Position numbers and translations under genes: made by a program. From contig NZ_JACBFO010000004.1 in assembly GCF_021401135.1 (NCBI RefSeq), forward strand, positions 310,001-374,000: a stretch of DNA of 64,000 bases. The letters run 5' to 3'. This DNA is from Azonexus sp. R2A61 (GTDB lineage: Bacteria; Pseudomonadota; Gammaproteobacteria; Burkholderiales; Rhodocyclaceae). Positions 962 through 48,580 of the stretch are shown piece by piece; within the stretch, counting starts at the first letter, position 1; each line of letters starts with the position of its first letter. Under the pieces are notes generated by a model. The model searched no databases. It was not told the origin of the DNA and saw only the letters and a list, made by a program, of their open reading frames with translations.

Positions 962-992
962 AGCGGCCGGCCGGCGCCGTTGCCTGCCGGTC

Positions 993-1757: not shown

Positions 1758-1821
1758 GGCGACGCCTGCGTGGCTAAAGCGTCGAGTGTTCTGGAAAAGC
1801 GCCGGCGGCGCAAGCGGCCGT

Positions 1822-1965: not shown

Positions 1966-1976
1966 GTCCGTGGCTT

Positions 1977-2276
1977 TCAGTGACGCCTGGCGACCCAGTA
2001 GGTCGCGCCGGCCGGGCCGTAGTATTCGGCATGCCGTTGTCCCGCCTCGAGCGCGAAGCGGTCGCCCGGCCGCAGGTGCCGGGTGATGCCATCGGTCATC
2101 AACCACATTTCGCCGGCGACGACGACGGCGAGCAGCGCGAACGGATGTTGATGATCGTCGACTTCGGCATCGGCCGGCCAGGTGCGTACCAGGGCTTCGG
2201 GGAAGCCGCGCTCCGCCGCCTCGGCGGCGAAGCGCGCGAAATCATCGCGGGGCAGGTTGCTGGCGACGACGTCCAC
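1977..2276 (-). CDS. Cupin-domain protein (99 aa)
   Basis: This is a single-domain small cupin. Residues about 40-90 carry the cupin pattern: the metal-ligand-like HQHPFALL, then GEMWLMTDG, then RPGDRFALEAGQRH. Such proteins bind metals or small ligands as a beta barrel, and the substrate cannot be inferred. The start is a GTG 14 bp after the tpx stop codon, with only a weak ribosome-binding site, so an alternative start is possible. Its position behind tpx suggests a link to peroxide or redox stress, but that rests on context only. Confidence 0.72.
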   Translation of the reverse strand: MDVVASNLPRDDFARFAAEAAERGFPEALVRTWPADAEVDDHQHPFALLAVVVAGEMWLMTDGITRHLRPGDRFALEAGQRHAEYYGPAGATYWVARRH

Positions 2277-2290
2277 GGCAGCGGCTCATC

Positions 2291-2791
2291 TCAGAGAACG
2301 GCAAGTGCCGCCGCGTAGTCCGGTTCGTTCTTGATTTCCGGGACCAGTTCGGCATGCAGGACCTTGTCGTCGCCATCGAGCACGACGACGGCCCGGGCGC
2401 TCAGGCCGGCCAGCGGACCGCTGGCGATCGCCACGCCGTAGGTTTCGAGGAAATCGCGGCCGCGCAGCGTCGACAGCGTGAGCACCTTGTCCAGGCCTTC
2501 GGCGCCGCAGAAGCGCTTCTGGGCAAACGGCAGGTCGGCCGAGATGCACAGCACGACGGTATTGGCCAGCGCATTGGCCTTGGCGTTGAACTGGCGAACC
2601 GAGGTGGCGCAGGTCGGCGTGTCGATGCTCGGGAAAATGTTCAGAATCTTGCGTTGACCGCGGAACTGGCTCAACGGCACGTCGGCGAGGTCGGCACCGA
2701 CCAGCGTGAAGGCGGGCGCGACATCGCCGACTTTCGGGAAGCGGCCGGCGATGGTGATCGGATTGCCGGCGAGGGTGACGGTTTGGCTCAT
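2291..2791 (-). CDS. tpx: Thiol peroxidase Tpx
   Basis: This is an atypical 2-Cys peroxiredoxin that reduces alkyl hydroperoxides and H2O2 with electrons from thioredoxin. The 166-residue length is normal. The peroxidatic Cys61 sits in [10 protein letters not shown] and the resolving Cys95 in KRFCGAEG, which is the Tpx arrangement. An extra Cys82 is also present. It heads a probable operon with the cupin and the Cys-rich protein, and a 29-codon reading frame precedes it. Confidence 0.97.
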
Positions 2792-2859
2792 GGTCGATTT
2801 TTCTGATGAATGGGATGAATCAGACGCCGGCCGGCGGAATTGGTTCCGGCGCGGCGGTT

Positions 2860-2949
2860 TCAGTAATTGTCCGGCAGGCCGGCAAGCAGTTCGATCCAGG
2901 GCGTCCAGGCCGCGCTGTCCTGATATTGCTGAAAGAGGCTGGCAATCAT
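2860..2949 (-). CDS. Candidate small ORF upstream of tpx (29 aa)
   Basis: A 29-codon frame starts with ATG at 2949, six bases after a GGAG Shine-Dalgarno, and encodes a peptide beginning [11 protein letters not shown] and ending AGLPDNY. It contains two tryptophans and no obvious membrane segment. It lies 68 bp upstream of tpx on the same strand, so it could be a leader peptide or an independent small protein. Support is the ribosome-binding site and context only. I recognise no family. Confidence 0.4.
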
Positions 2950-3034
2950 GGAAGTCTCCAGGCGGGGGCGAGAATGCCCGATGCCTGAAGTCTAGAAAAC
3001 CGTGCCGGATGGCACCAATCGATTGTCGTTATCG

Positions 3035-3059
3035 CGGCGATTGCGGCCGGCAATCGCCG
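3035..3059. repeat. Perfect inverted repeat downstream of plsY
   Basis: Ten-base arms CGGCGATTGC and GCAATCGCCG flank a five-base loop, just past the plsY stop codon. No T-run follows on either strand, so it is a stable hairpin that could protect a 3' end or act as a weak terminator, not a canonical intrinsic terminator. Confidence 0.5.
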
Positions 3060-3067
3060 GGCCGTGG

Positions 3068-3664
3068 TCAGCCCTTCTTCTTGCTGCCGATCCGGCTTTC
3101 CTGGCCGGCCAGCAGGCGCTGGATGTTGCCCCAGTGCTTGGCGATCAGGCCGAGGGCGAGCAGCAGCACGACGAAGGTCTGGGCGTTGCCGCCATGCATC
3201 AGCATCGCGTACAGCGGCGCGCCGGCGGCGGCGAGGATGGCGGCGAGCGACGAATAGCGCGACACGTAGGCGACCAGCAGCCAGGTGGCCAGCGTCGCCA
3301 GGCCGAGCAGCGGGTCGAGGGCGAGCAGTACGCCGGCGGCAGTGGCGACACCCTTGCCGCCCTTGAACTTCAGGAAGACCGGGAACAGGTGGCCGACGAA
3401 GACGGCCAGCGCGACCAGGGCCACGGTGCCGTCGCCCAGTTCGAGGTGACGGGCGACAAAGACGGCCAGCCAGCCCTTGGCGGCATCGCCGACCAGCGTC
3501 AGCAGCGCCGCCTTCTTGTTGCCGCTGCGCAGCACGTTGGTGGCGCCGGGGTTGCCCGAGCCGTAGCTGCGCGGATCGGCCAGGCCGAAGAGTTTCGACG
3601 AGATCATCGCGAACGGGACAGAACCGAGCAGGTAGGCGGCGAGGGCGGCAATCAAGGGGGTCAT
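3068..3664 (-). CDS. plsY: Glycerol-3-phosphate acyltransferase PlsY
   Basis: This inner-membrane enzyme transfers the acyl group from acyl-phosphate to glycerol-3-phosphate, the first step of phospholipid synthesis. The 198 residues include the three PlsY motifs: [12 protein letters not shown] (about 36-47), [17 protein letters not shown] (about 94-110), and the C-terminal block ending near KHWGNI. About five membrane helices are visible. It diverges from folB with a short shared promoter region. Confidence 0.97.
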
Positions 3665-3691
3665 GGACGGTATGGGCGTTGAGCGCTGGGG

Positions 3692-3697
3692 TACAAT
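3692..3697 (+). promoter_or_regulatory. Candidate -10 element for folB
   Basis: TACAAT sits in the context GGGGTACAATCGCGG. Similar GGG-TAxAAT contexts precede dnaE and dcd in this window. No convincing -35 hexamer is seen at the usual spacing, so this is tentative. Confidence 0.3.
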
Positions 3698-3737
3698 CGC
3701 GGCGGATTTTACACCCCGCCTTGCGGTCGACCGTCAC

Positions 3738-4088
3738 ATGGACATCATTTTCATCGAGGATCTGCGCGCCGAGACGTGGATCGGCATCTACCCGCGCGAG
3801 AAGGCGATGCCGCAAACGGTCGAGATTTCGCTGCGGATCGGCGTGTCGACCGCATCGGCCGGCGCCAGCGACGACATCCGCGATACCGTCGATTACGCCG
3901 TGGTCGTCGAGCGCCTGCGCGCCGATCTGGCGCAAAGCCATTTCAATCTGCTGGAAAAGCTGACCGAGCATATCGCCACCTGGCTGCTGGAAAACTTCGC
4001 CGCCCAGTGGGTTCGCGTGTCGGTCGCCAAGATTGGCATCCTGCCGGGCGTCAAGCGCGTCGGCGTGGTCATCGAACGGTCGGTGTGA
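3738..4088 (+). CDS. folB: Dihydroneopterin aldolase FolB
   Basis: FolB converts 7,8-dihydroneopterin to 6-hydroxymethyl-dihydropterin in folate synthesis. The 116-residue product starts MDIIFIEDLRAETWIGIYPRE, with the family's catalytic region early and DTVDYAVVVERL followed by FNLLEKLTEHIA in the middle. The ATG was chosen because the family starts there. A near-copy of the window's palindrome (GCGGTCGACCGT) lies directly before it. It is followed three bases later by a secreted unknown. Confidence 0.96.
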   Translation: MDIIFIEDLRAETWIGIYPREKAMPQTVEISLRIGVSTASAGASDDIRDTVDYAVVVERLRADLAQSHFNLLEKLTEHIATWLLENFAAQWVRVSVAKIGILPGVKRVGVVIERSV

Positions 4089-4090
4089 CG

Positions 4091-4924
4091 ATGCGCCGCT
4101 GGCTGCCTGCGCTTGCCCTGGTCGGCTGGCTGACGGCGGCACCGGCAGCGGCCTCCTGCCATGACGCGCCCTTCGCGCCGCCGGCCGGGGTCCGGCTGGA
4201 CGGCGATGCCGCGTTGATCGTCGTCCACGCCAGCGCCACCTACGACGCGCGGCTGGCCAGCAAGTACGGGGTCGATGAAGCGGTACGTTTCGCCCGCGAA
4301 CGCAACATTCCCGTCGTCTACCTGCAGGACGAGTCGGCGCCCGACAAGTATTTCGCCAGCGACTGCCGGCCCGATTACCGGATCTATTCGGCCGGCGGGG
4401 AAATCCGTTTCGACGCGCTGCCGCCGCATCTCTACATCGTCGGCGGGCACCTCGAACTGTGCCTGTCGGTGGCGCTCAACGAAATCATCGCGCGCTGGGC
4501 GCGCCAGCCGCCGCGCAAGCTGCGCATGACCTTGTTCATGGACGGCATCTATTCGAACGGCAAGAGCATCGACCCGGCGGCGCCTTACCATCGCGATTTC
4601 GCCCGCTTCATGGATGTCGTCACCTACGGCCGGCCGGGCGGCGAACACTGGCCCAAGCTGACGCTGCTCGAAACGATGGGCGTCATCGTCGATGAACAGC
4701 ATGAGCTCGATTACCTGATGCAAGTCTTGCCGCGCTGGGATACGAGCTTTTCCGATCGCTGGCGTGTCGAACTGCAGTTGAACGATTCGGTGGTCAAGGT
4801 ACTGCGCCCGGCGGCGGGCTGGAATCCGCCGACGCTCTCGTTCCATTTCGTCGATTCGGCCGACCTGGCCGAATCGACGGAGTGCCTGACCGGCACCGGC
4901 AAGCCGGCAACCTGCCGGCCCTGA
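4091..4924 (+). CDS. Secreted protein of unknown function (277 aa)
   Basis: The N terminus is a clear signal peptide with a hydrophobic core and an AAA-SC cleavage region at about residue 22. The mature part is globular and mixed alpha/beta. It includes the recognisable stretches LIVVHASATYDARL, LYIVGGHLELC and LRMTLFMDGIYSNGKS, but I cannot assign a family. It begins two bases after the folB stop codon, so the two are probably co-transcribed, although no folate role is implied. Confidence 0.82.
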   Translation: MRRWLPALALVGWLTAAPAAASCHDAPFAPPAGVRLDGDAALIVVHASATYDARLASKYGVDEAVRFARERNIPVVYLQDESAPDKYFASDCRPDYRIYSAGGEIRFDALPPHLYIVGGHLELCLSVALNEIIARWARQPPRKLRMTLFMDGIYSNGKSIDPAAPYHRDFARFMDVVTYGRPGGEHWPKLTLLETMGVIVDEQHELDYLMQVLPRWDTSFSDRWRVELQLNDSVVKVLRPAAGWNPPTLSFHFVDSADLAESTECLTGTGKPATCRP

Positions 4925-4927
4925 TCC

Positions 4928-5803
4928 TCAGATCGCGATGGCCAGGACGGTCATCGCCGCGAATCCTGCGGTCAACCCGGCGGTGGCGGCTTTTTCGCGG
5001 CCGGGGCGGTGCGAGGCGGGGATCAGCTCGTGGCTGACCACCCAGAGCATGGCGCCGGCTGCCGCGGCAAGGGCGAGCGGCAACAGTCCGTCGGCCACTG
5101 TCGTCGCCATCACGCCGAACATCCCGCCGACCGGTTCGACCAGGCCGGTGCCGAGGGCCATCGCTGCGGCACGCCACGGGCAGGCGCCGAGCACGAGCAT
5201 CGCGCTGGCGACGATCCAGCCTTCCGGAATGTTCTGGATGGCGATGCCGAGCGTCATCCCGTGATCGACGCCGGCGGCCGCCGAGACGCCGACGGCAAGG
5301 CCTTCCGGCACGTTGTGCAGGGCGATGGCGGCGACCACCAGCGCGATGTGCGGCTGCGTACCGTTTTCGGCGATGCCTTCGACGTGGGCGTGCGGCGTGC
5401 GCTGGTCCATGCGCTGCATCGCGGCGGCCCCGGCGAGCAGCGCGCCGGCGGTGGCGACGCCGAGCCACCACGGCGATGCGCTGGCGCCGACGATCTGCAC
5501 AGCCGGGACGAGCAGCGAGAACAGGCTGGCGGCGAGCATCATGCCGCCGGCGAGGCCGAGCATCGGCGCCATGAGGTTTTCCGACGGGCGGCGCATGAAC
5601 AGTACCGGCAAGGCACCGAGGCCGGTGGCGAGGCCGGCCAGCAAGCTGGCCTGAACGCCGCGGGCGGCCATCGGATGGGCGGCGAACCAGGCGATCGCCT
5701 GCGCGATGCCGAAGGCAATGCCGACGACGGCCATGGCAAGGCCGATCCACAAGTGGCGGCGGGCGGCGGGTCTGGCGTAGTGGCGGGCAACGATGTCGGT
5801 CAT
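4928..5803 (-). CDS. ZIP-family divalent metal transporter
   Basis: This inner-membrane carrier is likely to take up zinc, iron or manganese. The 291-residue protein has about eight hydrophobic helices, with the ZIP metal-binding helices intact: HNVPEG at 163-168 and QNIPEG at 190-195. A short His-containing loop (about 133-151) precedes the first. The start has a strong AGGAG ribosome-binding site that lies inside a perfect 9-bp inverted repeat, described separately. It converges on the preceding secreted protein gene with three bases between them. Confidence 0.93.
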   Translation of the reverse strand: MTDIVARHYARPAARRHLWIGLAMAVVGIAFGIAQAIAWFAAHPMAARGVQASLLAGLATGLGALPVLFMRRPSENLMAPMLGLAGGMMLAASLFSLLVPAVQIVGASASPWWLGVATAGALLAGAAAMQRMDQRTPHAHVEGIAENGTQPHIALVVAAIALHNVPEGLAVGVSAAAGVDHGMTLGIAIQNIPEGWIVASAMLVLGACPWRAAAMALGTGLVEPVGGMFGVMATTVADGLLPLALAAAAGAMLWVVSHELIPASHRPGREKAATAGLTAGFAAMTVLAIAI

Positions 5804-36648: not shown

Positions 36649-37233
36649 TCAGGGACGTTGTCGGGAGGCGAGTCTGCCGAGGATGAAACCCTTCAGTTCG
36701 TGGAACGGAATCGGTTTGCCGAACACCGTCACATCGGTCGGAATGCCTTGCTGGCGAATCTCGGTCGCGTCGATGGCGCTGACCACGATGATGTCCATTT
36801 GCGCCAGCTCGGGATTGGCACGCAGCCGGCGGATCATCTCGAAACCGTCCATGCCCGGCATCATCAGGTCGGCGATCAGGATGTCCGGCATCCGCTGGCC
36901 GACTTGCAGCAAGCCTTCGAAGCCATCGCCGACGATGCGCAGTCGGATCGGCAGTTGCCAGGCGTCGATCGTCATCCGGTAAAGCTTTTGCAGCGTGGTG
37001 TCGTCTTCGGCCACCAGGATGTCGAGATGGCCGGCGCTTTCGTTCGGGCTGGATATCTGCTTGCGGCGACGGGCCAGCAAGGCTTCGACCGAGGCGACAG
37101 GAATGCGCCGGTGTCCGCCGGCCGTCTTCCAGGCGTCGAGGACGCCGTTCTCCACCATGTTCTGGACCGTGCCGAGAGAGACGCCGAGTCGTTGGGCGGC
37201 CTGTCGAGTGCTGAGGAATTCGCTGTCTGCCAT
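36649..37233 (-). CDS. Excisionase-type HTH fused to a receiver domain
   Basis: The 194-residue protein begins with a MerR/excisionase-like helix-turn-helix (FLSTRQAAQRLGVSLGTVQNMVENGVL, about 6-55, with KTAGGHRRI). A response-regulator receiver (about 70-190) follows, with Asp122 in LIADLMMPGMDG and a conserved Lys in VFGKPI. This order, DNA-binding first and receiver second, is the reverse of most response regulators. No partner kinase is next to it. It diverges from the Dab-like operon and could regulate it. Confidence 0.88.
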   Translation of the reverse strand: MADSEFLSTRQAAQRLGVSLGTVQNMVENGVLDAWKTAGGHRRIPVASVEALLARRRKQISSPNESAGHLDILVAEDDTTLQKLYRMTIDAWQLPIRLRIVGDGFEGLLQVGQRMPDILIADLMMPGMDGFEMIRRLRANPELAQMDIIVVSAIDATEIRQQGIPTDVTVFGKPIPFHELKGFILGRLASRQRP

Positions 37234-37391
37234 CGCTATCGTCGAAATTGCAAAACTGGCAAATTCTAAACTCAGAAGCGGCCTTGTGCAAAGAAAAACC
37301 TGATCCATCGTTCTCCCGGCCGCCGGCGCGGCTGGCATAATCGCCGGATACCTGACAAGGCGTGGTGTGAAACGTCGATGAGGAAGAGGGG

Positions 37392-38840
37392 ATGCTGAAG
37401 GTGCTGGTTTTCATGCCGGTGGCTGCCGCTGCCGCGGTGGCGCTCGTGCCCGGCCGGCATCCGCTGCTGCGTTGGCGCCTGGCGATGCTCTGCGCGCTGG
37501 GGGCGCTGGCCTGGTCCTTGTTCCTGCTCGCTCGCTTCGATCCCGGCGGCGAGGCTTTCCAGTTTGCCTGGAGCCGCGCCTGGAACGTCCGGCTGGGGTC
37601 GTACTTCTCGCTGGCCGTCGACGGCCTTTCGCTGGCCATGGTGCTGTTGACCGCACTGCTGACGCTGGTGGCCGTACTGGTGTCGCGCGAGCTGGCGCGC
37701 GGCGCACGACTTTACTATCCGTTGTTGTTTCTGTTGCAGTCGGCGATGTTCGGGGTATTCACCGCCCGCGACTGGTCGCTGTTCTACGTTTTCTGGGAAG
37801 CGACGCTGATCCCGTTGTTCTTCCTGATCGACCGCTTGGGCGGCGACGACCGGCAGCGGGCGGCACTGAATTTCTTCCTGTATACGCTGGGGGGATCGGT
37901 GTTCATGCTGGTGGCGCTGCTCTTCCTTTATGACGCGGCGCCCGGGCATAGCTTTGCGATGGCCGACATGGCAGCCGGCGGCGCTCGCCTGGCGCCCGCC
38001 ATGCAACTGCTGATCTTCGGCGGGCTGTTCATCGGTTTCGCCGTCAAGATGCCGGTCGTGCCGCTGCATGGCTGGCTGCCGCTGGCGCATGTCGAGGCGC
38101 CCGGGCCGGTGTCGCTGCTGCTTTCCGGCGTGTTGCTGAAAATGGGAGCCTACGGTTTGCTGCGGGCCGCTGAAACCTTGCCGGCCGCCTTCCTGGCTAC
38201 CCAGGACTGGCTGGCCGCACTGGCGTTCGTCAGCCTCGTCTATGGGGCCGTGCTGGCCTGGCGTCAGCAGGACCTGAAAGCGATGGTCGCCTATTCCTCG
38301 ATCTCGCACATGGGCGTCGTCTTGCTCGGGATCGCGACGCTCAACCGGACCGGTTTGCATGGCGCGGTGTTCCAGATGGTGGCACACGGCCTGGCCGCTG
38401 CATTGCTGTTCATGATCGTCGGCCTGCTTTACCAGCGCACGCATCGCCGCGATCTGGCCGATTATGCGGGCCTGGCGGAGGGCGCCCCCCGTTTTGCCCG
38501 TTGCTTCGCGGCGGCACTGCTGCTGGCGATCGGTCTGCCGGCGAGTGCCGGCTTCATTGCCGAACTGCATGTGCTGTTCGGCGCGCTGGCGCGCTGGGGA
38601 GGATGGGTGTTGCTGCTCGGGCTGGCGATGCTGCTCGGCGCGGCCTACGGATTGCGTACCATCGGCGTGCTGTTTGCGGCGGGCAGCAACGGTCCGCGTT
38701 GCCCCGACATGCGGCGCAGCGAGTTGCTGGGTGCCGCGCTACTGCTGGCGGTCAGTATTGCGCTCGGTGTGTGGCCGCGACCGTTGCTCGATCTGGTCGA
38801 CGGCAGCGTCGCCCGCCTTGCCGTGCTGTTCGGGGGCTGA
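37392..38840 (+). CDS. NuoM-like proton-channel subunit 1 of the Dab-like complex
   Basis: The 482-residue protein has about 14 membrane helices and is homologous to NuoM/MrpD antiporter subunits (Proton_antipo_M). The key charged residues are in place: Glu136 in FYVFWEATLIP, Lys219 in FAVKMPVVPLHGWLP and Lys250 in LLKMGAYGLL. There are no other complex I genes here, so it is not part of a standard NADH dehydrogenase. Three bases separate it from the dabA-like gene. It is the first gene of the six-gene operon. Confidence 0.93.
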   Translation: MLKVLVFMPVAAAAAVALVPGRHPLLRWRLAMLCALGALAWSLFLLARFDPGGEAFQFAWSRAWNVRLGSYFSLAVDGLSLAMVLLTALLTLVAVLVSRELARGARLYYPLLFLLQSAMFGVFTARDWSLFYVFWEATLIPLFFLIDRLGGDDRQRAALNFFLYTLGGSVFMLVALLFLYDAAPGHSFAMADMAAGGARLAPAMQLLIFGGLFIGFAVKMPVVPLHGWLPLAHVEAPGPVSLLLSGVLLKMGAYGLLRAAETLPAAFLATQDWLAALAFVSLVYGAVLAWRQQDLKAMVAYSSISHMGVVLLGIATLNRTGLHGAVFQMVAHGLAAALLFMIVGLLYQRTHRRDLADYAGLAEGAPRFARCFAAALLLAIGLPASAGFIAELHVLFGALARWGGWVLLLGLAMLLGAAYGLRTIGVLFAAGSNGPRCPDMRRSELLGAALLLAVSIALGVWPRPLLDLVDGSVARLAVLFGG

Positions 38841-38843
38841 GCG

Positions 38844-41801
38844 ATGCATGTCGATCGGGCCCCGGATTTCCGTCAGCGCCTGGCCGACTGGTTGAGCCAT
38901 CTCGAGCACCTGTTGCCGGCGCAGGCCCCGATCCGCGATTTCGTCCATCACAATACCTTGCACGGCCTGCAGCACTTGCCGTTTGCCGAGGCCTTGCGGG
39001 CTGCGCAGGCGGCGACCGGGGCGCGGACCTACTGGGACGAGGCCAATTTCCGCGCTGCGCATGCGGCCGGACGGATCTCGCGCGACGACCTGCTTGCGGC
39101 CCTGGCCGAGGCCGGGCCGCCCGACGGGGACATTGCCGGGGCGGACGGCCTGCGTCGGCGCGAAGTCTGGCTGGCCAGCCTGCTGTCGGCGCCGGCGGCG
39201 TACGGCGATCCGGATTTTGCCGCGCTGCCGCGGTTGACCGCAGCCGGCGACTGGCGCCAGCAGGCGAACGCGCGCTGGCAGGCCCTGTGCGAGGCGCCGG
39301 GGTACTGCGCCAGCTGGCGCAGGCTGCTGCAGCACCTGTCCGGCGAAGACGTGCTCGCCGGCGTGCACACGGCGCTCAAACGACATCTGGCGGCGCATCT
39401 CGATCTCGGGCTGGCCGTCTGGCGCAATCCGGCGCGGGCGGGCGGCTTCTATGCAGCCTGGAAAGCCTCGGCCGGACTCGATCTGGCCTGGGAGCTGGAC
39501 GAACTGCCGGGCATCCATGCCGATATCCGGCAACTGCCCGACGATCCGCTACTTGCCCTCGAGCAGTCCTTGCGGGCGCTGCTGCCCGACGAAAATCGCT
39601 GGCTGGCGTGGTTGACCGCGCTGGCGCTCGAATTGCCCGGTTGGGCGGGGATGATGCGCTGGCGCGAGCGGCATCCGGCGAGCGGCGATGTGCCGGTTGC
39701 GCTGGTCGATTATCTGGCCGTGCGGGCTTTCCTCGAACACGGACTGTGCCGCGAAGCGACCCGGCGGCTGACCGGCGCGCCGCTCGATTTTGCCGAGTTC
39801 CTCGATTATTACCGGGCCTGTCCCGGCGAATTCCTGGTCCGCCACGCGCTGGCGGTGGGCGGGCTCGACGAGGCGACGGGCGCCGCGGTCGCCGGTTTGT
39901 GTGCGGCTGCTGCCGGTCGCGAAGCAAGCGGCTGGGATGCGCTGGCGCCGCAGGTGCTGGCGTCGTTGCAGGCAGCCGAGGCGCAGCACGATGCGCAGTA
40001 CCTGGCAGGGCTGCTCGATACGCTGGCGCAACTGGGCCGGCCGCTGTCGCCGGATGTCCGGCTGGCCGGCGAACTGCGGCAGACCGCCGCCGCGCTCGAT
40101 GCCGGCCGACGCGGTGAAATCTGGTTGCTCGCCTACGAAGCGCATTATCGCGAGCAGATCCTGTCGGCGCTGGCGAGCAACCTGAAGCGCCACGCCGGAC
40201 GCCCGGCAACGCGCTTGCCGCCGTCGGCGCAGGTGGTGTTCTGCATGGACGACCGGGAAGAGGGCACGCGCCGTCATCTTGAGGAAATCGCACCGACGGT
40301 CGAGACCTTCGGCGCTGCCGGCTTCTTCGGTATCGCCATGCGCTGGCGCGGGATCGACGATGCGACGGCGACGGCCTTGTGTCCGGTCGTGGTCACGCCG
40401 CAGCACCAGATCGACGAACGGCCGTGCGATGCCGCCCGCTGGCAGGTGCATGCCGGGCGCCGCGAACGCCGTCTGCGCTGGCGCGAACGTCTGTACCAGC
40501 AGACGCGCCACGCGCCGCTGGCCGGTCCCTTGCTGACCGCGCTCGCCGGGGCGCCGGCGCTGGCCGCGCTGACCGCCGGCAGTCTGGCCCCCGCCTGGCT
40601 GGCCCGGGCCTCGGCCCGCTGGCGCCGGCTGTACGAAGGCGAGGTGCCGGCCGAACCGCAGGTCTGTGCGACGGCGCCTGCGGTCGACGGCATCCAGCAC
40701 GGTTTTTCCGACATCGAGCAGGTCGACCGCGTCGAAGCTTTCCTGCGCACGATCGGCCTGACCGACGGTTTCGCCCCGCTGGTGCTGATGCTTGGTCACG
40801 GATCGCACAGCCGCAACAACCCGCATGCCTCGGCCTACGAGTGCGGCGCCTGTTCCGGCCGGCACGGCGGGCCGAATGCGCGGGTCTTCGCCTGGCTGGC
40901 CAATCGGCCGGCGGTGCGTGCCGGACTGCGCGCGCGCGGTATCGCGATTCCCGACGGCACGCGCTTCATCGCAGCCGGGCACGACACCTGCGACGATACG
41001 GTCGACTGGTACGATCTGCCGGATTTGCCGGCGCCGTGGCAGGCTGCGGTGGATCAACTGGTCGGGCAACTCGGCGAAGCCTGCCGGGCGCACGCCGTCG
41101 AACGCTGCCGGCGGCTGGCCTCGGCACCGCTCCGCCCGGGGCCGTGGCAGGCCCGGCGCCATGTTGCCGGGCGTGCCGCCGATCCGGCACAGGCCCGGCC
41201 CGAGCTGGGTCACGCGACCAATGCCGCCGCCTTCATCGGGCGCCGGGCGCTGAGCCGCGGGCTGTTCCTCGATCGCCGGGTGTTCCTGATTTCCTACGAT
41301 CCGCTGCCGGACGACGACGGGCGCATCGTCGAGAGCATCCTGCTGGCCGCCGGCCCGGTCGGGGCCGGCATTGCGCTCGAATACTACTTTTCGACGGTGG
41401 ATAACGAACGCTTCGGCTGCGGCTCCAAGGTCACGCACAACCTGACCGGGCTGTTCGGCGTGATGGACGGGGCCGATTCCGACCTGCGTACCGGTCTGCC
41501 GTGGCAGATGGTCGAAATCCACGAACCGATGCGGCTGCTGGTCGTCGTCGAGCAGGCGCCGGCGCTACTCTCGGCGATCGTCGCCCGGCAGCCGGCGTTG
41601 CAGGAACTGGTGGGTAACGCCTGGATTCAGCTGGCTGCGGTCGACCCGGTGAGCGGCGAGATTTTCCGTCACTGCCCGCGGCGCGGCTGGCTGCCCTGGC
41701 TGGGCGCTCAGGCCTTGCCGCGCGTCGCCCGTTCGGCCGACTGGTTTGCCGGCGAGCGTGGGGCGCTGGCGCCGGCACTGCTGCTCGGAGGCGAGCGATG
41801 A
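38844..41801 (+). CDS. dabA: Inorganic carbon transporter subunit DabA (PF10070/DUF2309)
   Basis: DabA-type proteins have a beta-carbonic-anhydrase-like zinc site and, with DabB, trap CO2 as bicarbonate using ion-gradient energy. This 985-residue protein keeps the expected ligands and spacing: Cys467 and Asp469 in FCMDDREEG, His652 in LGHGSHSRNNP and Cys667 in AYECGACSG. They correspond to Cys351, Asp353, His524 and Cys539 of Halothiobacillus DabA. It is peripheral, with no long membrane helices. It overlaps the NuoL-like gene by four bases. Confidence 0.93.
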   Translation: MHVDRAPDFRQRLADWLSHLEHLLPAQAPIRDFVHHNTLHGLQHLPFAEALRAAQAATGARTYWDEANFRAAHAAGRISRDDLLAALAEAGPPDGDIAGADGLRRREVWLASLLSAPAAYGDPDFAALPRLTAAGDWRQQANARWQALCEAPGYCASWRRLLQHLSGEDVLAGVHTALKRHLAAHLDLGLAVWRNPARAGGFYAAWKASAGLDLAWELDELPGIHADIRQLPDDPLLALEQSLRALLPDENRWLAWLTALALELPGWAGMMRWRERHPASGDVPVALVDYLAVRAFLEHGLCREATRRLTGAPLDFAEFLDYYRACPGEFLVRHALAVGGLDEATGAAVAGLCAAAAGREASGWDALAPQVLASLQAAEAQHDAQYLAGLLDTLAQLGRPLSPDVRLAGELRQTAAALDAGRRGEIWLLAYEAHYREQILSALASNLKRHAGRPATRLPPSAQVVFCMDDREEGTRRHLEEIAPTVETFGAAGFFGIAMRWRGIDDATATALCPVVVTPQHQIDERPCDAARWQVHAGRRERRLRWRERLYQQTRHAPLAGPLLTALAGAPALAALTAGSLAPAWLARASARWRRLYEGEVPAEPQVCATAPAVDGIQHGFSDIEQVDRVEAFLRTIGLTDGFAPLVLMLGHGSHSRNNPHASAYECGACSGRHGGPNARVFAWLANRPAVRAGLRARGIAIPDGTRFIAAGHDTCDDTVDWYDLPDLPAPWQAAVDQLVGQLGEACRAHAVERCRRLASAPLRPGPWQARRHVAGRAADPAQARPELGHATNAAAFIGRRALSRGLFLDRRVFLISYDPLPDDDGRIVESILLAAGPVGAGIALEYYFSTVDNERFGCGSKVTHNLTGLFGVMDGADSDLRTGLPWQMVEIHEPMRLLVVVEQAPALLSAIVARQPALQELVGNAWIQLAAVDPVSGEIFRHCPRRGWLPWLGAQALPRVARSADWFAGERGALAPALLLGGER

Positions 41802-43321
41802 ATGAAGTACTGCGCCACGCCGTCGACTGGATCTGGCTGGTGCCGCTCTGGCCGTTGCTGGCCGCGTTGGTGATCGGCCTGCGCATGCTGCTCGGGCGGA
41901 CGCATGGCGATGCCGCCGAGCCGGCGACGTCGCGCCTGGTGTCGGCCGCCGCGCTGGCAGCCTTGCTCGGCTTGTTGCTCGTCGACCTCGCCGTTCTCCG
42001 GTATGGTTGGCCGGGGCATCGGGCCGTCTGGGACTGGTTCGGCAGCGACGCCTGGCAGGGGCGGCTTTCCTTCCTGCTCGATGCCTTGTCGTTGCCGGTG
42101 GCGACGACCTTTGCGCTGATCGGCTGGCTGGTCGCCCGGTTTTCCGCCAGCTATCTGCATCGCGAGCCGGGTTTCCATCGCTTCTTCCTGGTCCTCGCGC
42201 TGTTCCTGGGCGGCATCCAGTGGGTCGTGCTCGGCGGCAATGCGCTGATCGTTTTCGTCGGCTGGGAGTTGTGCGGCGTCGCCTCCTTCCTGCTCATCGC
42301 CCACGCCTGGCAGCGGCCGACCGCCAGCGGCAACGCGCTGTTCGCCTTCATCGCCAACCGGGCCGGCGATGCCGGGCTGCTTTTCTCGCTCGGCCTGTGT
42401 GCCCTGTGGGTCGGCAGTTTCGAATGGCCGCAACTGTTTGCCAGCCATCTGCCGTTGGTTGACCTGCGCGTGCTGCTACTCGGTTTTGTCGTCGCCGGGC
42501 TGGTCAAGTCGGCGCAATTGCCGTTCTCGCCGTGGATCGGCCGGGCGCTGGAAGGCCCGACGCCATCGTCGGCGATTTTCTACGGGGCCGTGCTGATCCA
42601 CGCCGGCGTCTACCTGATGCTGCGTCTGCAGCCCCTGCTCGGTCAGTTGCCGGACGTGGCCGCCGGCCTGGTGCTGATCGGCGCGTTGACCGCCGGCTAT
42701 GCGTGGTTGTGCGGCCTGGTGCAGAGCGACGTGAAGTCGTCGCTGATCTTCGCCACGCTGTTCCAGGTGGCGCTGATGTTCGTCGCCATCGGCCTGGGCT
42801 GGACGACGCTGGCGACGGTGCATCTGTGCCTGCATGCCGGCTGGCGGACCTGGCAGTTCCTGCTGGCGCCGTCATGGCTGACGCTGACCCGTGCCCGCCC
42901 GGCACCGCCGCCCTCCTGGCTGGCCTCGCGGCAGTGGCTGTACACCGCGGCGCTGCAGCGTTTCTGGCTGGACCGGCTGGGCGACATCCTGATCGGCCAG
43001 CCGACGCGGGCGATCGCCGGCGACCTGCGGGCGCTCGAGGCAGGTTTCATCGACCCGGCGATCGGCCAGCCCGGACGCGGGGCGGCGGTCGACGAGCAGC
43101 GGCCGCTGGTCCGCGCCGATGGTTTGCCGGGACGTTTGCTGGCCCGCCTGTCCGGTTTCCTGCAGCGCATCGAGAACCGCCTGCTGCTGCACGGGCGCGG
43201 CGGCAGCGGCGAACGCATGCTGCGCGAAGCCGGCCACTGGCTGCGCACGCTCGAAGCGCTGCTCGAGGAGCCGCGTTACCTGATGATGGCGGTGATGGCG
43301 ACTTTCGTGGTGATCCTGTGA
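41798..43321 (+). CDS. dabB: NuoL-like subunit, probable DabB
   Basis: This 507-residue Proton_antipo_M protein is the likely membrane partner of DabA. Helices about 5 and 7 carry Glu157 in FVGWELCGVASF and Lys237 in GLVKSAQLPFSPWIG, the channel residues of the family. After about residue 350 the sequence leaves the NuoL pattern and becomes a soluble, Arg-rich tail (about 360-490) with a last hydrophobic stretch, as in short DabB proteins. It overlaps dabA by four bases and the next gene by one (TGATG). Confidence 0.9.
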   Translation: MNEVLRHAVDWIWLVPLWPLLAALVIGLRMLLGRTHGDAAEPATSRLVSAAALAALLGLLLVDLAVLRYGWPGHRAVWDWFGSDAWQGRLSFLLDALSLPVATTFALIGWLVARFSASYLHREPGFHRFFLVLALFLGGIQWVVLGGNALIVFVGWELCGVASFLLIAHAWQRPTASGNALFAFIANRAGDAGLLFSLGLCALWVGSFEWPQLFASHLPLVDLRVLLLGFVVAGLVKSAQLPFSPWIGRALEGPTPSSAIFYGAVLIHAGVYLMLRLQPLLGQLPDVAAGLVLIGALTAGYAWLCGLVQSDVKSSLIFATLFQVALMFVAIGLGWTTLATVHLCLHAGWRTWQFLLAPSWLTLTRARPAPPPSWLASRQWLYTAALQRFWLDRLGDILIGQPTRAIAGDLRALEAGFIDPAIGQPGRGAAVDEQRPLVRADGLPGRLLARLSGFLQRIENRLLLHGRGGSGERMLREAGHWLRTLEALLEEPRYLMMAVMATFVVIL

Positions 43322-44820
43322 TGACGAGTGCCGGCGAAATCCTGTGGACGGCGCAGGCCAGCCTGCCGTGGCTGGCCGTGCTGCAGTTGTTGCCGCTGCT
43401 CGGGGCGGCGGCGGTTTTTGTGCTGGGTGAGCGGTCGACCGCCGTCTGGCTGGGCAAGCTGTGTGCCGTCGGCGAACTGCTGCTGGTCGGCTGGCTGGCC
43501 GCCTGCATCGATCCGCTGTCGCCGGCGCTGCAACTGGCCGAGCGCATCGACGCGGTCGGCTATCACGTTGCGGTCGACGGCATCGCCATCGTCTTTCTTG
43601 CGCTGGCGGCCTTGCTGACGCTGCTGATGACCCTGTACGGCATGAGCCGCGGCATGATCTCGCAGGGCCGCCTGTTTGCCGTGCTGCTGCTGGCCGAGGG
43701 TGGCCTGGTCGGCATGCTGGTTACGGTCAACATCGCCTGGTTCGCTTTTTTCTCGGCGCTCGAACTGTGGGCGGTGATCTACCTGCTGCGCCGCTGGGCT
43801 TCGTCGCGGGCCGAACAGCAGGCGCTGGCGCGCTTCGTCCAGTATCAGGGCTTCGGCTGGCTGCTGTTCGTCGCCGGCTGTTTCGTGCTCGGCTGGGGAC
43901 ATGCCGAAACCCACGGCGGACGCTGGAGCTTCGATCTGTTCGAGCTGTCCGGTGCCCTGCCGCACGGCAAGTTCCAGACGGCGGCCTTCTATCTGCTGTT
44001 CTACGGGCTGGCGGTACGTACGCCGCTCTTTCCGTTGCACGGCTGGTTGCCGAACATGGCGCAGCATGGCTTGATTGCCGTCGGTCCGGCGCTGATGGTC
44101 GGCGTCAAGGTCGGCATTTACGGCATGCTGCGTTTCGTGTTGCCGCTGACGCCGGATGCGGTGCTGGCTTGGCAGCCTTATGTGGTCGGTTTTGCGATGG
44201 CCGGCGTGTTCTTCACCGCGGCGCTGGCCTTCCTGCAGACCAATTTGCGCCGCCTGCTGGCCTTTGCCGTGGTCAGCCACACCAGCCTGCTGGTGATCGG
44301 CTTGTTCAGCCTGCATGCCTCGGGGATTCAGGGGGCGGTCCTGCTGGCCGCCAATTTCGGGCTGGCGGTGACCGGCATGTGGTTCATCGTCGGTTTCGTC
44401 TTCCGGCGCACCGGGACGACCGAGCTGGGCGAGCTGTCCGGCCTGTTCGAGCGTATTCCTTTTCTCGCCGTCGCTTTCCTGGTGTGCGGTCTGGCCATCG
44501 TCGGCATGCCCGGCACCCCGGGTTTCGATGCGGCACACCTGGTGCTGGAGGCGGCGATCGACCGCTTCGGCGCCTTGTCCACGGTGGCCACCGCGCTCGG
44601 GAACGTGGCGGCGGCCGGGTTCCTGCTGTGGGCGTTCCAGAAAGCCTTCCTGGCCCAGGAAAAAGGCCTTGGACAGGCCGTCGACCGCACGCAGGCGATG
44701 GAGTACGCGGTGTGCGGGGTGGCGCTGGCCGCGCTGCTGGCGATCGGCTTTTTCACCGAGCCCTGGCTGCATCTGACCGAAGCGGCGAGTCAGGCGGCGG
44801 CGGCGAGGTTCGCGCGATGA
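43321..44820 (+). CDS. NuoM-like proton-channel subunit 2, with Arg in place of the helix-7 Lys
   Basis: The 499-residue protein has about 14 membrane helices. Glu148 (FSALELWAVIYLL) and Lys263 (GVKVGIYGML) match the antiporter-subunit pattern. The residue equivalent to the conserved helix-7 lysine is Arg233, in GLAVRTPLFPLHGWLP. The start ATG shares its A with the preceding TGA. A copy of the GCGGTCGACCGC palindrome lies in its 5' part (43431-43442). It overlaps the next gene by four bases. Confidence 0.9.
   Translation: MTSAGEILWTAQASLPWLAVLQLLPLLGAAAVFVLGERSTAVWLGKLCAVGELLLVGWLAACIDPLSPALQLAERIDAVGYHVAVDGIAIVFLALAALLTLLMTLYGMSRGMISQGRLFAVLLLAEGGLVGMLVTVNIAWFAFFSALELWAVIYLLRRWASSRAEQQALARFVQYQGFGWLLFVAGCFVLGWGHAETHGGRWSFDLFELSGALPHGKFQTAAFYLLFYGLAVRTPLFPLHGWLPNMAQHGLIAVGPALMVGVKVGIYGMLRFVLPLTPDAVLAWQPYVVGFAMAGVFFTAALAFLQTNLRRLLAFAVVSHTSLLVIGLFSLHASGIQGAVLLAANFGLAVTGMWFIVGFVFRRTGTTELGELSGLFERIPFLAVAFLVCGLAIVGMPGTPGFDAAHLVLEAAIDRFGALSTVATALGNVAAAGFLLWAFQKAFLAQEKGLGQAVDRTQAMEYAVCGVALAALLAIGFFTEPWLHLTEAASQAAAARFAR
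43431..43442. repeat. GCGGTCGACCGC palindrome, copy 5
   Basis: This is an exact 12-bp palindrome within the coding sequence of the second NuoM-like gene. Confidence 0.85.
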
Positions 44821-46259
44821 ACCTGCCCTGGCTTTCCTGCCTGCTGCTCCTGCCCTTGCTCGGCATCCCCGCGCTCTGGCTGCTGCCGGCACGTTGGGCG
44901 AAGCCGTTCAGCCTGACGGTGCTGGCGCTGGCCTTGCTGCTGGCGACCGGGCTGCTGATCGGTTTCGTGCCAGACGGCGAGCGCTTCCAGTGGGTCGACC
45001 GGGCGGCCTGGCTGCCCGGGCTGGGCGTGCAGTGGCTGCTGGCGGTCGACGGGCTGTCGGTGCTGTTTTTGCCGGCCAGCGTGCTGCTGTTCATCGGCGT
45101 CGTTGCCGTATCGGCCCCGCTGCACGCGGTACGGGCCTATCACGCCTGGCTGCTGCTGCTGGCGACGACGATGCTCGGCATCTTCTGCGCCCTCGACCTG
45201 GTGCTGTTTTTTGTGTTCTGGGAGTTGAGCCTGCTGCCGGTGTATTTCCTGCTCGCCCATTGGGGGGCAACGCCGGAAGCGCCGCGGGTGGCGGCGCGCT
45301 ATGTGCTGCTGATGCTGGGCGGCGGCGTTCCGTTGCTGCTGGCCATCGGGCTGCTCGGCATGGCGGGCGGTTTCGACGGCATCGCCCAGTTGACCACCTT
45401 GCGGCCGACGAGCGGGCAGTGGCTGCCTTTTGCGTTGATGTTGCTCGCGTTCGGCCTGAAGGTGCCGCTGGTGCCGCTGCATACCTGGCTGCCGCAACTG
45501 GCGCTGGCCGCGCCGGGCGGCTTGCTGGCGGTGGTTCTCGGGCTCAAGGTCGGGGCCTATGCGTTGATCCGCTTTGCCGTGCCGCTGGCGCCGCAGGCCG
45601 CGCTCGACCTGCACTGGCTGCTGGCCGGGCTGGGCACGGTGAGCCTGCTGTACGGCGCCGTCGGCATCCTGGCGCACAGCAATCTGCGGGTGGCGCTGGC
45701 CTATGCCAGCGTCTGTCATGTCGGGCTGGCCGTGCTCGGCCTGGCGACCCTGAGCCCGCAGGGCGTGCAGGGGGCGGTGTCGCTGCTGTTGAGTTTCTCG
45801 GCGGCGACCGGCGGCGCCTTGCTGCTGCTCGAATGCCTGCGTCGCCGAACGGGATCGACCGACATCCACGAACTCGGTGGTGCCGCGCGCAGCATGCCCT
45901 TGCTGGCCGGCGGCGTGTTGATCTGCGGCCTGGCCGGGGTCGGCATGCCGGGGACCAGCAGTTTTCCCGGCGAATTCCTGCTCGTGCTGTCGATACTTGA
46001 ACGCTACACCGGGGCCGGCATGGCTGCCCTGTTCGGTCTGGCCATTGCGGCCAGCGCCTTTCTGGCGCGTTACCGGCAGGCGTTTTTTGGCGGAATCCGG
46101 CGGTCGACCGTGGCACGGTCGCCGGATATCCGCGGCGCTGAGTGGCTCGTGCTGTTGGTGCTGATCGCCATCATCGTCGGCATCGGCCTGTATCCGGCAC
46201 CGTGGATCGACGCCGTGCGGCCGGCCGCCGAAGCCTGGGCAGCGGCGGTGCGGCGATGA
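44817..46259 (+). CDS. NuoM-like proton-channel subunit 3
   Basis: The 480-residue, about 14-helix protein of the NuoM family carries Glu136 in FVFWELSLLPVYFLL, Lys215 in FGLKVPLVPLHTWLP and Lys244 in GLKVGAYALI, so a complete proton path is expected. Four-base overlaps on both sides fix it in the operon. With the two other NuoM-like proteins and DabB it gives the complex four channel-type subunits. Confidence 0.92.
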   Translation: MNLPWLSCLLLLPLLGIPALWLLPARWAKPFSLTVLALALLLATGLLIGFVPDGERFQWVDRAAWLPGLGVQWLLAVDGLSVLFLPASVLLFIGVVAVSAPLHAVRAYHAWLLLLATTMLGIFCALDLVLFFVFWELSLLPVYFLLAHWGATPEAPRVAARYVLLMLGGGVPLLLAIGLLGMAGGFDGIAQLTTLRPTSGQWLPFALMLLAFGLKVPLVPLHTWLPQLALAAPGGLLAVVLGLKVGAYALIRFAVPLAPQAALDLHWLLAGLGTVSLLYGAVGILAHSNLRVALAYASVCHVGLAVLGLATLSPQGVQGAVSLLLSFSAATGGALLLLECLRRRTGSTDIHELGGAARSMPLLAGGVLICGLAGVGMPGTSSFPGEFLLVLSILERYTGAGMAALFGLAIAASAFLARYRQAFFGGIRRSTVARSPDIRGAEWLVLLVLIAIIVGIGLYPAPWIDAVRPAAEAWAAAVRR

Positions 46260-46465
46260 ACGGCGACGGCAAGGCGATCGAGGCGCTGGTCAACGACCCG
46301 GCACGGCCGCGTTGCCGGTTCTGCGCCCATCATTATGTGACGCACGATCCGAATTTTCCCTACGGTTGCCGCCAGCTCGGCTTCAAGAGCGGGCGCGAGC
46401 CGATGCGCGACGTGATCGAATCGTCCGGCGAGATCTGTCTGTATTTCAGCGACAAGCGCCGCTGA
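46256..46465 (+). CDS. Small cysteine-rich protein at the end of the Dab-like operon (69 aa)
   Basis: The product has CRFCAHHYVTH, FPYGCRQLGFKS and a late SSGEICLYF, so four cysteines and several histidines could bind zinc. Related small proteins occur in many bacteria without known function. Its start overlaps the stop of the third NuoM-like gene by four bases, so it belongs to the operon. It converges on the phnA-like gene with no gap. Confidence 0.82.
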   Translation: MNGDGKAIEALVNDPARPRCRFCAHHYVTHDPNFPYGCRQLGFKSGREPMRDVIESSGEICLYFSDKRR

Positions 46466-46810: not shown

Positions 46811-48502
46811 TCAGATCTCGTCGTTGGCGCCGCCCATCAGATCGGGCAGCAGCAGATAGGCGCGTTGCAGCGCGCGGGAAAGGTCGGGGCAGACATTGTC
46901 CCGACCGAGGTGTTCGGTGAAGCCGGAGCGTTCGAGCAGCGATGCCGGTTGCGCGTTCAGGCCGCAGACGATTAGTGTGCAGCCGCGCTTGCGCAGCTTG
47001 TCGAGCAGGTTTTCCAGGCCTTCCAGGCCGGTGGTGTCGAGCTGGACCAGGCGGGTCATGTCGAGCATGACGATTTCCGGATGGCCGGCGCGCGGATCGA
47101 GCAGTTCCTCCAGCTTGTTCACTGCGCCGAAGAACAGCGAACCGAACAACTGCCAGGCGGCGACCCGCATCGTGCCGTCCGGATACAGGAAACGCGGCTC
47201 GCCGGCTTCCTCGTCGAGCGCCAGGCGTTCGATGCGGGTCAGCTCCGACATCCGGTAGATGAAGAACAGGCTGGCCAGTACCATGCCCAATTCGACGGCG
47301 ATGGTCAGGTCGAACAACACGGTGACCAGAAAGACGCTGACCAGGATCACCCGGTAGTTCCACGAGTAGCGGCGCAACTCCTTGAATTCGTGCCATTCGC
47401 CCATATTGATGGCGACCACCATGACGATCGCCGACAGCGTGGCCAGCGGCACATAGGCGGCCAGCGGCGCGGCGATCAGCACGATGGCGAGCAGCACACC
47501 GGCGTGGATGATGCCGGCGATCGGCGTGCGGCCGCCGGTGCGCACGTTGGTCGTCGTCCGGGCGATCGCGCCGGTCGCCGCGAAGCCGCCGAACAGCGGG
47601 GCCGCGAGATTGGCCAGCCCCTGGGCGACCAGTTCCTGGTTGGGATCGTGGCGGTCGTCGATCTGGCCGTCGGCGACGCGGGCCGAGAGCAGCGACTCGA
47701 TGGCGCCGAGCAGGGCGATGGTGATCGCCGGCGAGATCAGCTTGCCGAAATCGTGGATCGACAACGAGGGCAGGCCGAAGGCCGGCACTTCCTGCGGGAT
47801 GCCGTTGAACCGGCTGCCGATCGTCTCGACCGGCAGGTCGAGTGCCCAGGCGGCGACGGTGCCGGCGACCAGCACGACCAGCGGGCCGGGGGCCCGGCGC
47901 AGCGGCGAAATGTGCTGCGCCAGCCGGTTGTAGGAGAGCAGGAAAACGAAGCAGGCGACGGAAAGTGCCAGGGTCGGCAGGTCGACCTTGGCGGCATGGG
48001 CGGCGAGTATCTTGATGCGGGCGAAGAACTCTGCCGGCAAGTGATCGATCTGCAGGCCGAAGAAATCCTTGATCTGGGCCAGGAAGATGACCACGGCGAT
48101 GCCGTTGGTGAAGCCGATCACCACGCTGATCGGAATGAAGCGGATCAACTGTCCCATGCGGCTGATGCCCATGATCAGCAGCAGCAGGCCGGCGAGCATC
48201 GTGGCGCCGAGCAGGTTGGCGAACCCGTGGACGGCGACGATGCCGTAGATGATGGGGATGAAGGCGCCGGTCGGGCCGCCGATCTGCACCCGGGAGCCGC
48301 CGAACAGTGAAATCAGGAAACCGGCGACGATGGCGGTCCAGATGCCGGCCGTCGGCGAGGCGCCCGAAGCGATGGCGAAAGCCATCGCCAGCGGCAGGGC
48401 GAGCACGCCGACCGTGATGCCGGCAGCAAGATCGCCTGCGAACAGCCTCCGGTCGTAGGTCGACAGGCATTCCAGCAGCTTGGGGCGGAAGGCGATTTTC
48501 AT
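46811..48502 (-). CDS. SulP-family anion transporter with STAS domain, possibly bicarbonate
   Basis: The 563-residue protein has about 12 membrane helices. Helix 1-3 sequences are AGDLAAGITVGVLALPLAMAFAIASG and GPTGAFIPIIYGI. The STAS domain (about 430-550) has the loop VQLDTTGLEGLENL. The N terminus MKIAFRPKLLECL matches BicA-like and related SulP carriers, so the ATG at 48502 was chosen; no strong ribosome-binding site is visible. Substrate could be sulfate or bicarbonate; location opposite the Dab operon favours bicarbonate by inference. Confidence 0.9.
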   Translation of the reverse strand: MKIAFRPKLLECLSTYDRRLFAGDLAAGITVGVLALPLAMAFAIASGASPTAGIWTAIVAGFLISLFGGSRVQIGGPTGAFIPIIYGIVAVHGFANLLGATMLAGLLLLIMGISRMGQLIRFIPISVVIGFTNGIAVVIFLAQIKDFFGLQIDHLPAEFFARIKILAAHAAKVDLPTLALSVACFVFLLSYNRLAQHISPLRRAPGPLVVLVAGTVAAWALDLPVETIGSRFNGIPQEVPAFGLPSLSIHDFGKLISPAITIALLGAIESLLSARVADGQIDDRHDPNQELVAQGLANLAAPLFGGFAATGAIARTTTNVRTGGRTPIAGIIHAGVLLAIVLIAAPLAAYVPLATLSAIVMVVAINMGEWHEFKELRRYSWNYRVILVSVFLVTVLFDLTIAVELGMVLASLFFIYRMSELTRIERLALDEEAGEPRFLYPDGTMRVAAWQLFGSLFFGAVNKLEELLDPRAGHPEIVMLDMTRLVQLDTTGLEGLENLLDKLRKRGCTLIVCGLNAQPASLLERSGFTEHLGRDNVCPDLSRALQRAYLLLPDLMGGANDEI

Positions 48503-48539
48503 GAGGCACGCTCGTCGGGACAAGCGAAGCATTATATGA

Positions 48540-48553
48540 GACGCTGATGCGTC
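48540..48553. repeat. Short inverted repeat GACGC-TGAT-GCGTC
   Basis: This is a perfect five-base inverted repeat directly upstream of the SulP gene, next to the tandem 11-bp repeats. Confidence 0.4.
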
Positions 48554-48558
48554 GTCAA

Positions 48559-48580
48559 TGTTAATCACATGTTAATCACA
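48559..48580. promoter_or_regulatory. Tandem 11-bp direct repeat, candidate ribbon-helix-helix operator
   Basis: TGTTAATCACA occurs twice in immediate succession (48559-48569 and 48570-48580). It lies between the SulP gene and the divergent ribbon-helix-helix gene, 45 bases before the latter's ATG. One-turn spacing suits side-by-side dimers. Confidence 0.6.

Follow-up and report, generated by a model that had tools for sequence, protein, structure and literature searches.

The cyanobacterial NDH-1MS and NDH-1MS' complexes, built around NdhF3, NdhD3 and CupA, take up CO2 by joining a hydrating protein to antiporter-like membrane subunits. A described bacterial counterpart is DAB2 of Halothiobacillus neapolitanus, the DabA2-DabB2 pair (PDB 9rd0), for which the available part of its structural account assigns site roles to DabA2 Cys351, Asp353, His524 and Cys539 and describes Glu444 as essential and central to coupling, protons being thought to pass through DabB and a half-channel that this glutamate completes (PMC13144422). 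The same account places Leu658 at the position of the transition-state residue of beta-carbonic anhydrases, and invokes that missing residue when asking why DAB2 is silent without proton flow. An earlier survey of gene neighbourhoods with COGNAT (2017), likewise available in part, reported dabA (ybcC) upstream of nuoL together with an extra NuoM (COG1008) and SulP (COG0659), and suggested that the number of subunits may set the number of ions (PMC5700660). The present analysis concerns a locus of this kind in a 64,000-nucleotide stretch of Azonexus sp. R2A61 (contig NZ_JACBFO010000004.1, positions 310,001 to 374,000), called the window throughout, where an operon at 37392-46465 on the plus strand contains a conserved set of five genes, M1-DabA-L-M2-M3. 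Judging from their sequences, we put at roughly 0.57 the probability that these genes encode one membrane-bound, proton-motive-force-driven CO2-hydrating complex.

The operon consists of six open reading frames separated by one 3-base gap, after M1, and four 4-base overlaps. It opens with M1, a NuoM-like subunit of 482 residues (37392-38840; PF00361 233.5 bits), followed by an extended-type DabA of 985 residues (38844-41801; PF10070 804.5 bits), by L, a NuoL-like DabB orthologue of 507 residues (41798-43321), by the degenerate NuoM-like M2 of 500 residues (43318-44820; PF00361 121.6 bits), by the NuoM-like M3 of 480 residues (44817-46259; PF00361 147 bits), and by a 69-residue Cys-containing protein (46256-46465), all on the plus strand. 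The starts of M2, M3 and the Cys protein are taken as the ATG at each overlap, longer open frames extending beyond them. All four membrane proteins match PF00361 at 98.9-233.5 bits (Pfam; cut-off 21.5), and neither NuoA, NuoH, NuoJ, NuoK or hydrophilic-arm genes (open reading frame list and Pfam) nor the Mrp small-subunit families MrpB, C, E, F and G (Pfam) were found among the six. An earlier note on this DNA, made from the sequence alone, had described just such tight spacing, one DUF2309/DabA protein, four Proton_antipo_M proteins and no NADH-oxidising module, and these descriptions hold. Its inclusion of the Cys-rich protein as a core part, and hence of six genes in the conserved order, does not: a homologue of the Cys gene occurs in only 5 of 80 related loci, although 64 of the 80 have at least 300 bases after M3 and could have shown it, and the protein has no match in Pfam or NCBIfam at E 0.001. 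The six-gene operon was thus rejected, and the conserved unit is the five genes M1-DabA-L-M2-M3, of which the Cys protein is not a part.

This order is complete in 68 of the 80 related loci, which are the best of 534 relatives found in a DabA scan and therefore lean to close relatives. Ten of the other twelve are cut by contig ends, and the remaining two are a Thiothrix locus with a duplicated DabA-L pair (L066) and a Magnetococcales locus with DabA alone (L062). The five-gene order recurs in records titled Azonexus/Dechloromonas, Accumulibacter, Sulfuricellaceae, Thiobacillus, Methylomonas, Methylobacter and Magnetococcales, which led us to reject a chance arrangement. Stray NDH-1 genes were rejected as well, since the 3.73 Mb genome has its own separate NuoL/M/N set, together with separate MrpA/MrpD-type genes, and the order is conserved.

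A second, phylum-wide draw found PF10070 matches in 71 of 397 Pseudomonadota genomes, and 59 loci were fetched from 58 of these 71. The sample leaves aside the window's own genome, fragments in G228, G428, G431, G411, G062 and G109, and, as untyped, complete matches with frames of 805-843 codons in G139, G422, G407, G271 and G373; G027 was fetched separately. Twenty-two of the 59 loci have a long DabA (1048-1124 matched residues) adjoined by M1, L, M2 and M3, one of them (L179) with M2 in two pieces and M3 cut by a contig end; 33 have a short DabA and one upstream NuoL-like gene, with an M gene in none of the 33 fetched stretches. Four odd loci stand outside the residue tallies given below; by their DabA residues, L169, L198 and L202 are of the extended type and L164 of the two-gene type. 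In two genomes (G416, G156) a lone DabA carries the extended residues while an extended-type L lies elsewhere (43 percent identity, nearly full length) within a separate membrane cluster, ordered M1-L-M2-M3 (L271) in one case and M1-M3-L-M2 (L272) in the other. Counted by genome, 24 of the 25 extended-type genomes of the phylum sample carry all four membrane genes as well as DabA; in the exception, G318, DabA (L198) is followed by no more than L and a weak PF00361 protein, and a contig end lies before it.

Some of these loci are of interest in their own right. The L198 stretch (65-5716) may represent a simpler ancestor or a decayed operon, its upstream side being cut by the contig end. A second DabA-L pair lies beside a single M1/M2/M3 set in Thiothrix (L066, 8451-23138) and in a member of the Methylococcaceae (L090, 3160-17841). 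In L164 (3835-7935) a two-gene-type DabA sits inside a 1367-codon frame, perhaps a DabB-DabA fusion, and no separate NuoL-like gene was found in that locus.

In the window's DabA the zinc set Cys467, Asp469, His652 and Cys667 named in the earlier note is present, aligns with DabA2 Cys351, Asp353, His524 and Cys539, and is joined by Arg471, which completes an Asp-Arg dyad. The zinc ligands and the dyad are kept in 103 of 103 extended DabAs, a set made up of the window, the loci of the 80 best relatives and the 22 phylum-sample loci, which reduces to 101 rows at 95 percent identity and includes L062, although no operon stands beside its DabA (its contig is of the same size as that of L169). The zinc set is shared with the two-gene and DAB1-like DabAs, from which two other columns separate the extended ones. 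At DabA2 Glu444, glutamate occurs in none of the 103 (aspartate in two; Ala566 in the window), and an acidic residue lies within five residues of the column in only two, while Glu444 is kept in 37 of 37 two-gene and 18 of 18 DAB1-like DabAs (55 of 55). At Leu658, histidine stands in all 103 (His790 in the window), and leucine is kept in 37 of 37 two-gene and 18 of 18 DAB1-like proteins. In addition, the position of Ser356 is glutamate in extended DabA, the serine being present in 18 of 18 DAB1-like sequences. These swaps at Glu444 and Leu658 may have a prior description; the literature covered here consisted of Creative Commons-licensed papers in PubMed Central.

The DAB1-like comparison set comprises 18 loci picked for long DabA matches from 31 DabA-positive genomes among 46, themselves drawn from 71 CsoS2-positive genomes of 369; 15 of the 18 lie, by coordinates, within about 15 kb of csoS2, and none of the 18 was identified as the DabA1 of H. 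neapolitanus. The length of DabA might suggest membership of the DAB1 type, an assignment that was rejected, given that DAB1-like DabAs retain Glu444 and Leu658. In a DabA tree of 41 sequences, with support from the Shimodaira-Hasegawa-like approximate likelihood ratio test only, the extended clade is sister to the DAB1 type at 96. In fold searches a structural model of DabA came nearest to carbonic anhydrases among the matches listed; the DAB2 structure 9rd0 was not among the fold matches listed for the models (library to 2026-04-08).

The membrane subunits were placed in a midpoint-rooted tree of 78 sequences in which NuoN, MrpA and MrpD each form one long branch. The sister of L is the group of DabB and DAB1-type DabB (97/82), and that of M1 is NuoM (98/86); M2 pairs with M3 (97/89), and a single clade unites every M protein with NuoM (100/99). 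By these placements L is the DabB orthologue, and the operon is DabA plus DabB plus three NuoM-lineage subunits, a correction to the earlier note's reading of the four antiporter-like subunits. Against TIGR01972 (NDH_I_M, cut-off 263.8) M1 scores 457.1 and M3 340.5, and M2, at 267.7, barely passes. The residue tallies for L, M1, M2 and M3 take in only rows that reach 85 percent of the length of the window's own protein, and the helices of the M subunits carry names that we assign after NuoM. M1 keeps Glu136, Lys219, Lys250 and Glu391, at the Glu of transmembrane helix (TM) 5, the Lys of TM7 and TM8 and the Glu of TM12, each in 77 of 77 rows and in 21 of 21 of a second sample; M3 keeps Glu136 (65/66), Lys215 (65/66), Lys244 (66/66) and Glu386 (66/66), each again in 21 of 21. 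In M2 the TM7 lysine is replaced by Arg234 in 71 of 71 and 21 of 21, and position 406, at the TM12 Glu site, is Ala or Val in 71 of 71 and Glu in 0 of 21 of the second sample. Its helix-5 residue is Glu in 56 of 71 (Gln in 12, His in 3), and in the second sample Glu in 1 of 21 (Gln in 16, His in 4); a helix-5 glutamate, which the earlier note had seen in each subunit, is thus a feature of all four window proteins that does not extend to the M2 family. On residue evidence M2 is degenerate, and M1 and M3 keep the channel residues that were examined.

L combines features of NuoL with a shortened membrane part. By a simple count, hydrophobic segments past residue 358 number 0, 1 and 2 in 43, 31 and 3 of 77 L proteins, and 3-8 in 37 DabB, 4-6 in 18 DAB1-type DabB and 3-9 in 30 NuoL; membrane helices after about residue 363 have been lost and a NuoL-like C-terminal segment has been kept. 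The two best curated NuoL models end at L residues 358-359, and residues 359-433 match the NuoL C-terminal segment in a profile-profile comparison (score 42.3, E 3.8e-5, probability 70.8) with a 30-sequence NuoL profile, where the best of 30 column shuffles reached 21.2 and the control profiles reached 16.9 (DabB) and 15.3 (M1). The match appears only in that comparison: single-sequence BLAST against the genome's own NuoL gave at best 19.6 bits (E 0.16), and the L C-terminal profile against that single NuoL gave a weak E of 0.38. An AlphaFold2 model of L (mean predicted local distance difference test score, pLDDT, 80.5) superposes on E. coli NuoL 7p7c, at rank 5, with 2.4 A over 395 residues (model 9-413 on chain 1-562), and its helix 391-413, of middling confidence, overlies a late part of NuoL, which we take to be the lateral helix HL, despite the missing intervening helices. 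The ion-pair residues Glu157 (76/77), Arg188, Asp191 and Lys237 (77/77 each) are the same in 30 of 30 NuoL. A TM5 glutamate, whose loss the DAB2 authors single out as a DabB2 trait in the part of their text available (PMC13144422), occurs in 0 of 37 DabB and 0 of 18 DAB1-type DabB. Arg350 is present in 77 of 77 L proteins, whereas lysine stands there in 37 of 37 DabB, 18 of 18 DAB1-type DabB and 30 of 30 NuoL.

Taken as one complex, the five proteins could work as follows. The zinc site of DabA, of beta-carbonic-anhydrase type, would make bicarbonate inside the cell, and L would receive DabA as DabB2 does in DAB2. The helices lost from L are, at the level of sequence, those that build the outer half-channel in NuoL and partly in DabB2; because both these helices and DabA Glu444 are lost, protons probably bypass the DAB2 route in the extended complex. 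Since M1 and M3 keep channel residues and L keeps NuoL-type ion pairs, flow through M1 and M3 is the simplest reading, with the two subunits presumably set in a complex-I-like row that the lateral-helix-like C-terminal segment of L may clamp, and with M2 as a putative non-pumping spacer or end piece. Proton entry along the row would then activate the DabA site and render hydration unidirectional. With more than one H+ per CO2 such a complex could work at a lower proton-motive force than a one-channel DAB: by arithmetic, about 177 mV would be required for a 1000-fold drive if one H+ is used, and 59 mV if three are. More tentatively, and with somewhat less than an even chance of being right, the extended complex would form a separate class of vectorial carbonic anhydrase, with a canonical His site, in which energy arrives sideways through a complex-I-type channel row and lateral helix rather than through a finger Glu, and in which a CO2-hydrating enzyme replaces the redox arm at a higher proton cost per CO2.

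Several points weigh against a single proton-driven complex of this design. DAB2 works with two subunits, and its L658Q variant is inactive in vitro while several Leu658 mutants work in vivo (PMC13144422, as far as available); in view of these mutants, His790 need not alter catalysis. The finger of DabA is the least certain region of the alignment. Because Arg350 replaces lysine, the proton path of L itself may be altered, and the L helix laid on the NuoL segment belongs to blocks with pLDDT of 76 and 65, falling below 50 from residue 413. L198, which branches deepest among the extended DabAs, has L and one weak PF00361 protein only. Within the genus, RuBisCO occurs in 10 of 15 genomes with DabA and in 6 of 10 without it (Fisher p 1.0), and beta-carbonic anhydrase in 24 of 25 genomes. 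Since DabA does not track RuBisCO and beta-carbonic anhydrase is nearly universal in these genomes, a need for the operon in CO2 fixation lacks support, and a link to autotrophy was set aside. The window's genome itself has one RuBisCO large-subunit match, on the same contig about 117 kb from the operon, and one beta-carbonic anhydrase match.

The rival that survives best, though we consider it unlikely, is that an ordinary DAB-type complex consists of DabA and L alone, with M1-M3 as a co-transcribed, separate Mrp-like antiporter. The sufficiency of DabA and DabB in DAB2, the channel residues that M1 and M3 possess of their own, and the second DabA-L pairs beside a single M-gene set in L066 and L090 would all fit this division. 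However, parts of the proton path of DAB2 are missing from the DabA-L pair, L having few or no hydrophobic segments past 358 and DabA no Glu444; L stays with M1-M3 in the two genomes where DabA lies elsewhere; and no Mrp small subunit was matched among the six operon proteins, the MrpA/MrpD-type genes lying elsewhere in the genome. Improbable in our judgement is a cation-coupled bicarbonate importer in place of a CO2 hydratase, as proposed for S. aureus MpsAB, a putative sodium-bicarbonate cotransporter in the part of that report available (PMC6689103); SulP anion transporters often adjoin extended operons, but the zinc ligands, the Asp-Arg dyad and the His belong to a site of carbonic anhydrase type, and arguments against sodium coupling were put forward for DAB2 by its authors (PMC13144422, in part). 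Reverse operation, in which an exergonic DabA reaction drives outward ion pumping by several subunits, was proposed by the COGNAT authors before the family had a known function (PMC5700660, in part) and could draw on the ion-pair residues of L that are linked to directional pumping in NuoL, but it is very improbable, for on general thermodynamic grounds the hydration of CO2 around neutral pH does not release enough energy for the export of a single proton at about 150 mV, and several channels worsen the shortfall.

Apart from the five-gene unit, the surroundings of the operon include a divergent upstream gene (36649-37338) encoding an HTH_17 DNA-binding domain and, after it, a response-regulator receiver; such a gene accompanies 26 of 80 extended loci and 0 of 37 two-gene loci, and it may regulate the operon or simply lie next to it. 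A gene resembling peroxiredoxin by eye lies divergently upstream of M1 in 23 loci, L023 among them; it is absent from the window. Downstream, on the opposite strand, lie yjdM and a SulP-family anion transporter (46811-48568, minus strand; PF00916 305.3 bits). Searches that took the SulP of the window as query (E 1e-15), in flanks whose lengths differ between the sets, found SulP beside 44 of 80 extended loci, 6 of 22 extended loci of the phylum sample, 0 of 37 two-gene and 2 of 18 DAB1-like loci, and in 9 of the 19 loci that have 3 kb or more of sequence on each side and fall outside an Azonexus/Dechloromonas-like group drawn roughly by locus number. In the listed loci beyond that group, SulP identities are 25-30 percent and side and strand vary, which suggests repeated association with extended dab operons; SulP is a frequent neighbour and a possible partner of the complex. 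Different SulP subfamilies stand on different sides and strands of these operons.

The extended clade, about a hundred sequences in which both Glu444 and Leu658 are swapped, the zinc site is kept and three NuoM-like subunits are added, offers a natural experiment on the coupling of proton-motive force to CO2 hydration, and on the question whether arms of complex-I type are able to power non-redox chemistry. By record titles it occurs in Dechloromonas, Accumulibacter and methanotrophs, away from carboxysomes, the setting of the systems studied best.

Measured against the known systems, the operon shares with the cyanobacterial NDH-1MS/MS' complexes a CO2-hydrating protein and several antiporter-like subunits, but has no electron-transfer or quinone module, and L scores 108.7 bits against the NdhF3 model TIGR01960, whose cut-off is 588.7. 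With the membrane arm of complex I it shares M1-M3, which group with NuoM, and a NuoL-like L with ion pairs and C-terminal segment; it differs in having antiporter-like subunits only. Mrp antiporters differ by their small subunits MrpB, C, E, F and G. The DAB1 type, mostly carboxysome-linked, has a similarly long DabA (about 1010 matched residues), but its one NuoL-like gene lies upstream, no NuoM-like trio accompanies it, and Glu444, Ser356 and Leu658 are all retained in the 18 loci compared. Likeness to DAB2 extends to the PF10070 subunit, the Cys2-His zinc site, the Asp-Arg dyad and a NuoL-family partner with conserved inner half-channel Lys and His (PMC13144422, in part); differences are that dabA here precedes the DabB orthologue, that three NuoM-like genes are added, that DabA has lost Glu444 and carries His for Leu658 and Glu for Ser356, and that the NuoL-type subunit keeps the TM5 Glu, has Arg for Lys347 and has lost the later membrane helices. 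The earlier note's picture of a unit larger than DAB, in design between DAB and NDH-1MS, is partly supported: the gene order is conserved, the residues of L suit a design between DAB and complex I, and the four membrane genes stay together even away from dabA in two genomes. M1-M3 are additions to a DAB; yet, because Glu444 is missing from DabA and His takes the place of Leu658, which was unforeseen, the system is not simply a DAB with extra channels, nor, given the genome's separate NuoL/M/N and Mrp-type genes, a set of stray NDH-1 genes. Such operons go unmentioned in the available part of the DAB2 paper, where the word operon has no occurrence (PMC13144422). Clade C of the COGNAT ybcC neighbourhoods very probably represents the same operons, and that account, in the part available, differs in offering no comparable residue analysis, CO2 function or subunit orthology (PMC5700660). 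By sequence features the operon thus falls outside the DAB2/DAB1 type, for which Glu444, Leu658 and the full later DabB helices are all lacking, and inside the DAC/DAB family in its broad sense, with both a PF10070 zinc/Asp-Arg protein and an adjacent DabB orthologue; it is a variant of the known DAB/DAC kind, in a neighbourhood already in print in 2017.

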